Made by a program: the position numbers and the translations under genes. A DNA stretch of 64,000 bases from Haladaptatus caseinilyticus (GTDB lineage: Archaea; Halobacteriota; Halobacteria; Halobacteriales; Haladaptataceae), in contig NZ_CP111036.1 of NCBI RefSeq assembly GCF_026248685.1, positions 124,001 through 188,000 of the forward strand, read 5' to 3'. This document shows positions 3,664-46,760 of the stretch, in pieces. The notes below the pieces were generated by a model. That model did no database searches. It had not been told where the DNA came from and saw only the letters and a program-made list of their open reading frames with translations. Positions within the stretch are counted from its first letter, which is position 1. The number at the start of each line of letters is the position of its first letter.

Positions 3664-4940
3664 AGATTCACCTCGTCGCTTGCGTTTCGTCCCGCGACGA
3701 CGCCGGTCGCCAGCGAGATACCGCTTCCTGACTTCTCGGCCGCGAAATCATAGCCACCGAGAACGCCGCCAACAGCACGGAGGTTATGGAACTCCGGACT
3801 GCCCGCAGAATCGAGTGGACGCAGTTCGTCGTCTACCCTGACGCCGAATCGAGCAAACCGATGATCGTCGAAGGCCCCGTCCTCGAACCAGTCGTATCGG
3901 TTTTCTGGCGCGGGAACGTGACAGTCGAAGACGGGTTCGCGGACGCCACTACGGTCCGAATCGATACCTTTGCCGACCAAACCGCCCGTTGCCAATACGA
4001 ACTGCTCGCCGTGGAACGGAATCCGCGCACTGTTTCGCTCTACGATGACCGCTGAAATCTCGTCCGTCCCTTCGAAATCAACGACCGGATTTCCGGTCGT
4101 GGTTCGGACGCCTGCCTCTCGAAGGGCAGTTTCGAACTCCGCTTCGAGTCGCATCCCCGGAAGACTCGGTGTCCCCATCGGTATTTCGAACACCTCGACG
4201 CCCAACTTGCGTCCGATGGTCGCTCGAACCTCGTCGGGATGTTCCTCACCCAGTATCGCGGGGAAACCGACACGCTCCGCATCCCCGAGGTGGGGTTTCA
4301 CCCGCTCCGCGAGGGCGATTCGGGCCGGAACGGATTCCGACACGCTCCCCCGCCCGCCCACTTCGATGCGTTCGTTTTCGTCGAGTGCATGTGCGAGACG
4401 CGTAACCCGAGCGTCGGTTCGGAAATCGCCCAGAAATTGGAGTGTGATGCCGCGAACGTCGAACGGGACCGTTTCCGCGAGATGTTCGGCGGCCAGTGGC
4501 GCGTCGAAATCGACGACCGTCTCGAACCCGACGAGCAAAGCGTCTCGCTCGTCACTGGCCAATCCAGGTGCGGTGTGTTTCGGGTAGCGTGCGGTCGGTT
4601 TTACCGTCCCGCCGAAGGTGGGGACGAGGGCGTTGCGGTCGGTGTGACCGCCCGCGTAGTCAGTGACGGAATCGATGAGGGCGAGGCCATCGCGGATGCC
4701 GTCCTCGCCCACTCGCCGATAGGGATGTTCGTCCGGTAACTGCGAGATCGTCTCGAACGGATTCGAGACGATCTCGCTCCCGACGTAGCCCAATACGTCG
4801 ATGAGGCCACTCGCAAACCGGAGTGTGCTCTCCTTGTGCGAGAGCAGTCTGACCCGTGACCCATCCTGTGCCGCCGATAGGGCGGTCGCCATCCCCGCCA
4901 GTCCACCGCCGACGACGACGACGTCGTCCTCAATCGCCAT
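3660..4940 (-). CDS. glpB: Anaerobic-type glycerol-3-phosphate dehydrogenase subunit B
   Basis: This flavoprotein subunit has an N-terminal dinucleotide-binding motif ([17 protein letters not shown]) and a C-terminal FAD-proximal segment ending [14 protein letters not shown], as in GlpB. It helps transfer electrons from GlpA to GlpC. I placed the start at the Met just before [12 protein letters not shown]. The ORF is open upstream to 4991 inside glpA, but that extension is basic and does not look haloarchaeal. With this start it overlaps the end of glpA by 11 bases. GlpB is typically poorly conserved; the gene order A-B-C makes the assignment secure. Confidence 0.92.
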
Positions 4941-23503: not shown

Positions 23504-24181
23504 ATGGGGAAACGTGCGCTGGAACGTCGGCTTTCCGCAGTCGCCGACTTCGCCGATCCGCAGGTCGAACTGGAGCAGTACGCGACACCCGCGGACCTCG
23601 CGGCCCATCTCGTTCATCTCGCCGACGTTCACCACGACGTTGCCGGACGGACGGTTCTCGATCTCGGCACCGGAACCGGGATGCTCGCGATCGGGGCCGC
23701 GACTCGTAGTCCCCGACGTGTCGTGGGACTCGACCGAGATGGAACCGCCATCGAGCAGGCACGCGAAAACGAATCCCACGTCGCACCCGAAACGCCCATC
23801 GAATGGGTGGTCGGGGATGCGACCCGCGCACCGCTGTGTCGGAAGAATCTTCGGGCGAAATCGGTCGATTCGGCCGAATCGACCGAACTGACCGAATCGG
23901 CATCATCCGTGACGGTGCTGATGAACCCGCCGTTCGGCGCTCAGACGGGCAACCAACATGCGGACCGCGCGTTTCTCGAAACGACTTCGGCAATCGCGGA
24001 CGTCTCTTACTCCATTCACAACGAAGGGAGTTTGGACTTCGTCGAGGCGTTCGCCGAAGATGCTGCCGCGGATGTAACACACGCGTTTCGAGCGGAACTG
24101 CCGCTCTCGCGGCAGTTCGAGTTCCAGCGGGAGGAACGAAAAGTAATCGACGTGGAAGTGTTCAGAATCGAGTGGCGTTAG
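23504..24181 (+). CDS. METTL5-like N6-adenine methyltransferase with an inserted loop
   Basis: Class I methyltransferase of 225 residues. The S-adenosylmethionine site is VLDLGTGTGMLAIGA at 51-65 and the catalytic motif is NPPF at 141-144 (LMNPPFGAQTGN). Family marks EQYATPADLAAHL and the final EVFRIEWR match archaeal homologues of METTL5, which methylates an adenine of small-subunit rRNA in eukaryotes. Between GDATRAP and the NPPF strand there is an insert of about 18 residues (KNLRAKSVDSAESTELTE), absent from relatives as I remember them and encoded by a perfect DNA palindrome. It ends four bases inside the convergent rhomboid gene. Confidence 0.85.
   Translation: MGKRALERRLSAVADFADPQVELEQYATPADLAAHLVHLADVHHDVAGRTVLDLGTGTGMLAIGAATRSPRRVVGLDRDGTAIEQARENESHVAPETPIEWVVGDATRAPLCRKNLRAKSVDSAESTELTESASSVTVLMNPPFGAQTGNQHADRAFLETTSAIADVSYSIHNEGSLDFVEAFAEDAAADVTHAFRAELPLSRQFEFQREERKVIDVEVFRIEWR
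23861..23886. repeat. Perfect 26-bp palindrome inside the METTL5-like gene
   Basis: TCGGTCGATTCGG (23861-23873) is followed directly by its exact reverse complement (23874-23886). A partial further copy (ACCGAATCGG) follows at 23891-23900. It falls exactly in the low-complexity insert of the methyltransferase. Confidence 0.9.
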
Positions 24182-25815
24182 CTGCCATACGTTTCCTTCT
24201 TTGCCACCTGAACGCGGGTATCGTCGATGACGGCGACGATGCGGTCGTTGGTTCGCTCGAACGTAACTCCTCGAAGCGTAATCGAGGAGCTCGGGGCCGG
24301 AAGCGGACCGCTTGCGACTGTCGAATTGTTTGCCGACAGTTCGAGGGTGAACCGATCACGATGTACGGCGATCGAAACCTGCTTACCAGCGAGCACGGGG
24401 TCGGCGGTCACAGCGTCGGAGGAAAACACGTGCTTCCACCGGTTCGAATCCGAACGCAACCACACCTGATAGGCGGTTCCACCGCCGCTCGCGCTCCAAC
24501 CCTCTCGTTTTACGTGAACCGCTTTCTGCCATCCGACACCGCCGACCCTGACCGTTCTCCGACCGGCATGTGCGAGTTGCCCCTTCGACACCTCACGGGA
24601 CCAGATTTCTCGGTTTTCGTTGACGACGATGACGCCGCTCGTGTTCACTTGCGTCGTCTCGCCACCGAGCGAAACGTCGATGACGGACACTTTTTGGTTC
24701 GGCACGTTTTCCGCGTACATCACGGTGTAGCCGTCGATTTCGACGGCGGAACCGACATCCGCGGTTCCGTCGCCATCGACAGTGGTGAGATTTATCGGAA
24801 CCGCGATTCCGGCCATCGCAACCAGCGGAATCAACAACAGGACCGTCCCCGCCTGTCTGACGGTCGGCCCGAACGCTTCCCGGTCGGTCGTTCGGACCGC
24901 CACTGTCACGAGTATCGAAAGCGCGAGGACGAACAAGACGCCGAGGCCGCGAAAGAGGACGTATTTTTCCAACCCACGGTACCACCAGAGCGCCCACAGC
25001 GACAGCGACATCAGGAGGACGAAACTCCCCGTCCAGGTCCGGAGGGCACTCGATCGAACGTCCCGTTTCCGAAGGAGGTAAACGCCCGCAACCGCGCCGA
25101 GGAAGAACCCGAGCGTGTGTCCCTGCACGGCGATGCCGAACCACCACGGGCGTGAGAACGACGTGGACGCCTCGCCGAGTATTCGTGGATCGAGAAACGC
25201 TTGGTAGAGCGTGCTGACGACTCCCTGTGCCGAGAGCGCGACGATGGTCCCCAACGGGTACCGAACCAGCGCGAATCCGACGAAAGCGAAGACGACACCG
25301 GAAAATCCGATAACCGGCCCCCACGCCAAAACGCTCGTCCCGAGGCCGATGACGATTGCGCCGAGCGGGAACAGCACGAATGCACGAATCCACGGGTTCG
25401 TGCGCCACGACGACCCGGACTCCTCGCCGCGTTCGGTCGGATAGTGGCTGAAGTAGTACTCCGCCAGCGGCGCGAGGGCGAGCGTGCTCGTCATGTTGCC
25501 GATGAGATGCCCCGGTCCGGCGTGCGAAAACGATCCGAGAAGCATCCCCAACGGGTAGAGATACGACCACGACGCAAACGCGACCGTAACGGGATTGCGC
25601 CAGTGGTCCCACCCTCCCTGCACGAACAGGTAGACGGCGACGACGCCGACGACGGAGACGAGTGTCCCCCACGGAACACCGAACAGGAACCGTTTGCGAA
25701 GTGCCGTTCCCCATTTCCCCTGCGGACGATCCAAAGACCAGACGACGAGAATCGAGAGTACCAAGCCGAGCGGGATTGCGACCCGAATCGGCCACCCGTC
25801 GAGCAACGACACCAT
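24178..25815 (-). CDS. Rhomboid-family intramembrane serine protease with C-terminal extracellular-type domain
   Basis: The rhomboid core has six or more helices. The catalytic Ser is S172 in IGFSGVVFAF and the catalytic His H233 in QGHTLGFFLGAVAG; HLIGNM (103-108) is the oxyanion/helix-2 motif. After a few further helices (to about residue 350) there is a soluble beta-rich C-terminal domain of about 180 residues with many Val and Thr. Rhomboids cut membrane-anchored proteins and may process surface glycoproteins in haloarchaea. I start at MVSLLDGWP (25815); the longer ORF to 25893 has an unlikely N-terminus. Its stop overlaps the methyltransferase stop region by four bases. Confidence 0.92.
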   Translation of the reverse strand: MVSLLDGWPIRVAIPLGLVLSILVVWSLDRPQGKWGTALRKRFLFGVPWGTLVSVVGVVAVYLFVQGGWDHWRNPVTVAFASWSYLYPLGMLLGSFSHAGPGHLIGNMTSTLALAPLAEYYFSHYPTERGEESGSSWRTNPWIRAFVLFPLGAIVIGLGTSVLAWGPVIGFSGVVFAFVGFALVRYPLGTIVALSAQGVVSTLYQAFLDPRILGEASTSFSRPWWFGIAVQGHTLGFFLGAVAGVYLLRKRDVRSSALRTWTGSFVLLMSLSLWALWWYRGLEKYVLFRGLGVLFVLALSILVTVAVRTTDREAFGPTVRQAGTVLLLIPLVAMAGIAVPINLTTVDGDGTADVGSAVEIDGYTVMYAENVPNQKVSVIDVSLGGETTQVNTSGVIVVNENREIWSREVSKGQLAHAGRRTVRVGGVGWQKAVHVKREGWSASGGGTAYQVWLRSDSNRWKHVFSSDAVTADPVLAGKQVSIAVHRDRFTLELSANNSTVASGPLPAPSSSITLRGVTFERTNDRIVAVIDDTRVQVAKKETYGS

Positions 25816-25938
25816 AGTCGGAGTGTGTGACCACGATGGTATAAATGAACCCGTCCTGTTCCGTGAGTGAGATGAGGGGGACTGAAACCACAACTCGTTA
25901 CGAAATCGTTTTGATGAAGTTGATTCTGGTTACGATAG

Positions 25939-42288: not shown

Positions 42289-46760
<4,472 letters not shown>

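Follow-up and report, generated by a model that had tools for sequence, protein, structure and literature searches.

In the 64,000-nucleotide stretch of Haladaptatus caseinilyticus DNA analysed here (the window), a perfect spacerless palindrome of 26 bp lies in frame inside the gene of a METTL5-like protein of 225 residues. It probably arose when a short template switch during replication (a quasipalindrome mutation) occurred in a disordered loop that tolerates changes in length. We infer this origin, rather than chance codon choice, as likely but short of proof, since none of the relatives is near enough to show the parent state. The features of the gene are as follows.

23504..24181, plus strand: METTL5-like (archaeal PH1948-type) RNA N6-adenine methyltransferase gene, 225 aa, with the NPPF catalytic motif (PDB and Pfam matches)
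23819..23923, plus strand: length-variable linker from GD (motif III) to NPPF, 35 residues (orthologue comparison and AlphaFold2)
23861..23886, no strand assigned: perfect spacerless 26-bp palindrome, TCGGTCGATTCGG/CCGAATCGACCGA, coding for SVDSAESTE
23861..23899, plus strand: imperfect 9-nt direct repeat coding for Ser-x-Asp/Glu, TCGGTCGAT TCGGCCGAA TCGACCGAA CTGACCGAA TCG (sequence reading and recoding simulations)
24095..24118, no strand assigned: second, shorter inverted repeat of the same gene, 10-nt arms and 4-nt spacer, in the conserved codons of ELPLSRQF

The palindrome and its host gene

The palindrome (TCGGTCGATTCGGCCGAATCGACCGA, window positions 23861-23886) is exact, with arms of 13 nt, as had been noticed in an earlier sequence-only reading of this DNA, and as single-stranded DNA it is predicted to form an 11-bp hairpin with a 4-nt loop (-11.3 kcal/mol). 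Perfect arms with a spacer of 0 give it the form of a reverse-complement copy beside its source, which is looked for in template switching. The partial third copy mentioned in the same reading was found at 23883-23895 on the minus strand (11 of 13 positions), and is present because the unit of the 9-nt repeat is self-complementary: the loop DNA follows the pattern TCG NNC GAW, and the unit TCGRYCGA is nearly its own complement.

The assignment of the gene to the METTL5-like group was borne out by homology over the whole chain. The best solved relatives of the protein are PH1948 (PDB 1wy7, E 4.5e-25) and human METTL5 (6h2u, E 1.8e-19); the matches to 1wy7 and 6h2u/9ohl cover NPPF, and there is a Pfam MTS match. 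The gene was matched in 58 of the 59 haloarchaeal genomes searched, and its product is predicted to remain an ordinary METTL5-type methyltransferase. At the place of the ELPLSRQF inverted repeat, two sister species have 11-nt arms. The minus strand at 24181-25893 carries an ORF of 571 aa, counted from the earliest start in its frame; its match to Rhomboid is weak (E 6.7e-6) and lies above the Pfam cut-off. A METTL5-like gene is also present on CP031304.1 (Natrinema thermotolerans "plasmid unnamed6", 987 kb) together with adenylate kinase, cysteine-tRNA ligase and tpiA; because of these housekeeping genes, the record labelled as a plasmid is probably a piece of chromosome.

A variable loop between GD and NPPF

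The palindrome falls between GDATRAP and NPPF, in a loop of variable length and low model confidence. Among 104 distinct haloarchaeal orthologues, the linker has 35 residues in the genome of the window (G000) and 14-54 in the others, mostly 15-18; within the genus it has 16 residues in G004 and G005, 22 in G003 and G006, and 38 in G007. An extra loop of 18 residues had been proposed; the loop is indeed extra, while its size is 19 residues when compared with the shortest same-genus orthologues (35 vs 16). In the AlphaFold2 model (mean pLDDT 89), block means are 89-98 across the preceding 110 residues and drop in residues 111-130, whose two blocks average 71 and 57, and on this model the loop would be disordered and tolerant of changes in length and of in-frame change.

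It had been argued that the palindrome would be a coincidence of codon choice if most close relatives shared the loop with diverged DNA. On alignment, one of the eight genus relatives (G007) has a similar loop with diverged DNA, and most have shorter loops, which bears that argument out only in part. The G007 repeat resembles that of G000 with imperfect pairing (13 of 16 pairs). In this only relative with a comparable loop, the palindrome segment can be aligned in two repeat registers, 19/26 or 18/26 identical (counted by eye). Since the 9-nt repeat permits both registers, the ancestral state of the segment cannot be fixed, and for the same reason we gave up the idea that the centre of the palindrome is directly homologous to G007 sequence.

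Relatives with inverted duplications in this loop

When the 104 orthologues were scanned for inverted repeats (arms of at least 11 nt and spacers of at most 12), near-perfect ones were found in the loop of six, including G000 with its palindrome. The others have 16-nt arms (G006), 14-nt arms (G003), 15-nt arms and 11-nt arms (one each), and a 46-bp palindrome (G017). Two more lie upstream of the loop at residue 97 (L018) and residue 112 (L022), where there looks to be a second insertion-prone stretch. The orthologue of G017, a Halorussus-family genome, is at L009 1501-2175 (G017:C1:347224-347898, minus strand); its 46-bp palindrome is perfect and spacerless, and the same gene has another inverted repeat, with 16-nt arms, around codon 66.

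In three relatives the source of the copy can be read. The reverse complement of the codons of TVLMN, a conserved segment adjoining the loop downstream, is found in the loop at 15 of 15 positions in G006, 14 of 15 in G003 and 12 of 15 in G007, and the best match in the other 101 orthologues is 10 of 15, with a mode of 8. The locus tree, (G000,(G007,(G006,G003))) with full support, dates this inverted duplication to the ancestor of G007, G006 and G003, after the split from G000. The inverted copy is fading in G007, and the palindrome of the window is a separate event. The pattern of a reverse complement beside its source is clearer in these relatives than at the palindrome itself, and inverted repeats arose several times in the METTL5-like loop.

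Excess of coding inverted repeats in the family

Coding inverted repeats with arms of at least 12 nt and spacers of at most 6 were counted in genomes sampled at 400 kb, giving about 320 kb of coding DNA each from G000 (327 kb), G007 and G003, and expectations were obtained by shuffling synonymous codons within genes, with proteins kept. Against these protein- and codon-preserving expectations, 7 were observed vs 0.4 in G000, 16 vs 0.7 in G007 and 23 vs 0.4 in G003, and 56 vs 3.25 in G017, which represents the second genus of the family (G017:C1:150001-550000, L189-L208). The excess is thus 17-58 fold in three Haladaptatus genomes and one further family member, G000 having the lowest count of the four, and none is seen in one control genome of another family (G031, 1 vs 1.6). 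When all DNA was counted, 20 further family genomes gave 22 inverted repeats in 400 kb, and non-family genomes gave 7 in 1.40 Mb around the METTL5-like gene (73 loci; binomial p about 1e-9); Natrinema gave 1 in 200 kb. The family contrast is strong, but in part it sets different regions of the genomes side by side, and it has a single full control from outside the family; when the comparison is confined to the same genomic neighbourhood, 144 kb of family DNA contain 3 (p 0.06).

Of 42 coding inverted repeats compared with orthologues, 15 coincide with indels, vs 6.6 expected (p about 1e-4). At gap-free repeats, pairing is not conserved in orthologues (0.70 vs 0.74 expected under random change), so that no selection for a hairpin is visible, and a conserved hairpin function was rejected; unconserved pairing is as expected for recent, unselected mutations. 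Raised divergence, a signal of homogenisation, was not found inside the gap-free repeats (0.214 vs 0.196), and these repeats therefore do not show multi-base switch events.

Several individual repeats were recorded. Those of G017 reach 29-nt arms with a 2-nt spacer. An inverted repeat at window 4742-4777 (16-nt arms, 4-nt spacer), called intergenic, is possibly a conserved regulatory or RNA structure, since G007 and G003 have closely similar versions, intergenic in the former and within a called ORF in the latter. At window 45501-45525, GAGCGCGCTCGATTCGAGCGCGCTC has 12-nt arms in an ORF of 648 aa, and at this place two sister genomes encode an identical protein. L229 and L232 (G001:C28 and G005:C1, 100001-120000) have common arms, GACGAACGACTCGC/GCGAGTCGTTCGTC, with different centres.

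Origin of the palindrome

During DNA synthesis, the nascent strand may fold back on the opposite strand, or copy it, for some tens of bases; such a switch would leave a reverse-complement copy adjoining the original. In the loop of G000, the nearly self-complementary 9-nt unit of the Ser-x-Asp/Glu repeat would have given an imperfect inverted repeat, which one or more switches could have turned into a perfect palindrome; the in-frame change would be tolerated by the loop, and the palindrome could thus have persisted. Copies beside their source, spacers of 0 to five bases, placement at indels in tolerant loops and lack of conservation fit short-range template switching. In the Haladaptatus/Halorussus family as a whole, an unusually high rate or poor removal of short template switches might repeatedly have lengthened disordered acidic loops via in-frame inverted duplication, a tendency that other haloarchaea would lack; we offer this wider proposal tentatively, with doubt still outweighing belief. 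Loss of Mre11 as the cause of the family excess was rejected, since all 59 genomes have Mre11_Halo, and wherever a best hit is listed for a family genome it exceeds the curated cut-off. In the search for Rad50, matches were swamped by the coiled coil (15 of about 200 candidates were scored), and the model of the zinc hook lacked power.

The main rival is a coincidence of codon choice, in which the Ser-x-Asp/Glu repeat, written in TCG, NNC and GAW codons, was perfected by substitutions and slippage with no template switch. The earlier statement that the palindrome is unlikely by chance holds with regard to base composition: in Markov models of the window, palindromes of at least 20 bp occur at most about 0.1-0.2 times per 64-kb window, and one of 26 bp was seen in none of 45 simulated 64-kb windows. 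It does not hold for the lineage, as 400 kb of G000 contain three spacerless palindromes of at least 26 bp (26, 28 and 32 bp). When the loop residues were recoded synonymously with the codon usage of the window, palindromes of at least 26 bp arose in 0.8% of trials and of at least 20 bp in 3.1%, vs at least 26 bp in 2 of 100,000 random peptides of the same codon usage (about 0.002%). The residue sequence of the loop makes the palindrome far likelier, yet is not enough on its own to explain it. Because of this repeat, and because a similar, imperfectly paired one is found with diverged DNA in G007, codon choice is still a live rival. We nevertheless regard it as unlikely, since the 0.4 coding inverted repeats expected in 327 kb of G000 by synonymous shuffling are far fewer than the 7 observed, and independent inverted duplications occur in the same loop of several relatives.

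A selected DNA or RNA element, such as a binding site, a recombination site, or an mRNA hairpin or attenuator inside the gene, is very improbable. The predicted 11-bp hairpin would suit it, but this perfect palindrome is found at the METTL5-like loop of no family orthologue and of no relative checked. The genome has a single copy, and across eight other genomes of the genus the only site close to it is one in G003, unrelated and with 3 mismatches. Its location in a disordered loop and the lack of conserved pairing in similar repeats point to neutrality. We see no sign of a function of its own, and infer that it has none.

Least probable of all, and barely credible, is a mobile palindromic insertion. 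Palindromic elements of Rickettsia are about 100-150 bp long and multi-copy, and place palindromic DNA in frame within genes; the Haladaptatus palindrome is like them in being in frame, in an extra loop of a gene, but differs in its single copy and its 26 bp. Dispersed similar copies were not found: a search of the G000 genome, which the sequence-only reading had proposed, found no further full-length site even when 3 mismatches were allowed, and the other inverted repeats of the same genomes differ in sequence. The half-site has only three other exact copies in the 4.8-Mb genome. A mobile palindromic element, a repeat family and a self-target are thus ruled out, and the suggestion of a recombination mark found no support. 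What survives of the idea of a tiny palindromic insertion is an extra low-complexity loop with the frame kept, for which a small inverted duplication is the best fit.

Comparison with known systems

Template switching is already known, and the palindrome is in our view a genuine but unremarkable scar of mutation in a loop that is neutral, and looks like one of many in this family; nothing may be new here except the excess of coding inverted repeats across the family. Taken alone, the palindrome has curiosity value, and together with the relatives it becomes a readable case of loop growth by backward copying of adjoining conserved codons. An excess of 17-58 times expectation makes the family a natural lineage for asking which archaeal repair and replication proteins suppress such mutations.

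Quasipalindrome or short-range template-switch mutations are known in E. coli (PMC7202029), in coding genes of yeast (PMC8604942) and in RNA genes and hairpins (PMC8794818). As in the present case, these are perfect or near-perfect inverted repeats with spacers of zero to a few bases and with matched or newly copied arms, some of them coding. There, the mutation itself was observed, in a reporter or between close strains, whereas the Haladaptatus case is deduced between species, and many of the Haladaptatus-family cases are at indels in acidic protein loops. According to the survey of Ladoukakis and Eyre-Walker (2008), as described in PMC8794818, palindromes and close inverted repeats are above expectation in prokaryotic genomes, the excess being weaker in archaea and the levels in coding regions generally normal; in contrast, the haloarchaeal family studied here has an excess in coding DNA, and one control genome has none. 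Perfect inverted repeats are also found inside protein-coding genes of Nematomorpha mitochondria (PMC6649704), but these reach 284 bp and both of their arms code for conserved protein, whereas those of the Haladaptatus family are short, many of them in variable loops.
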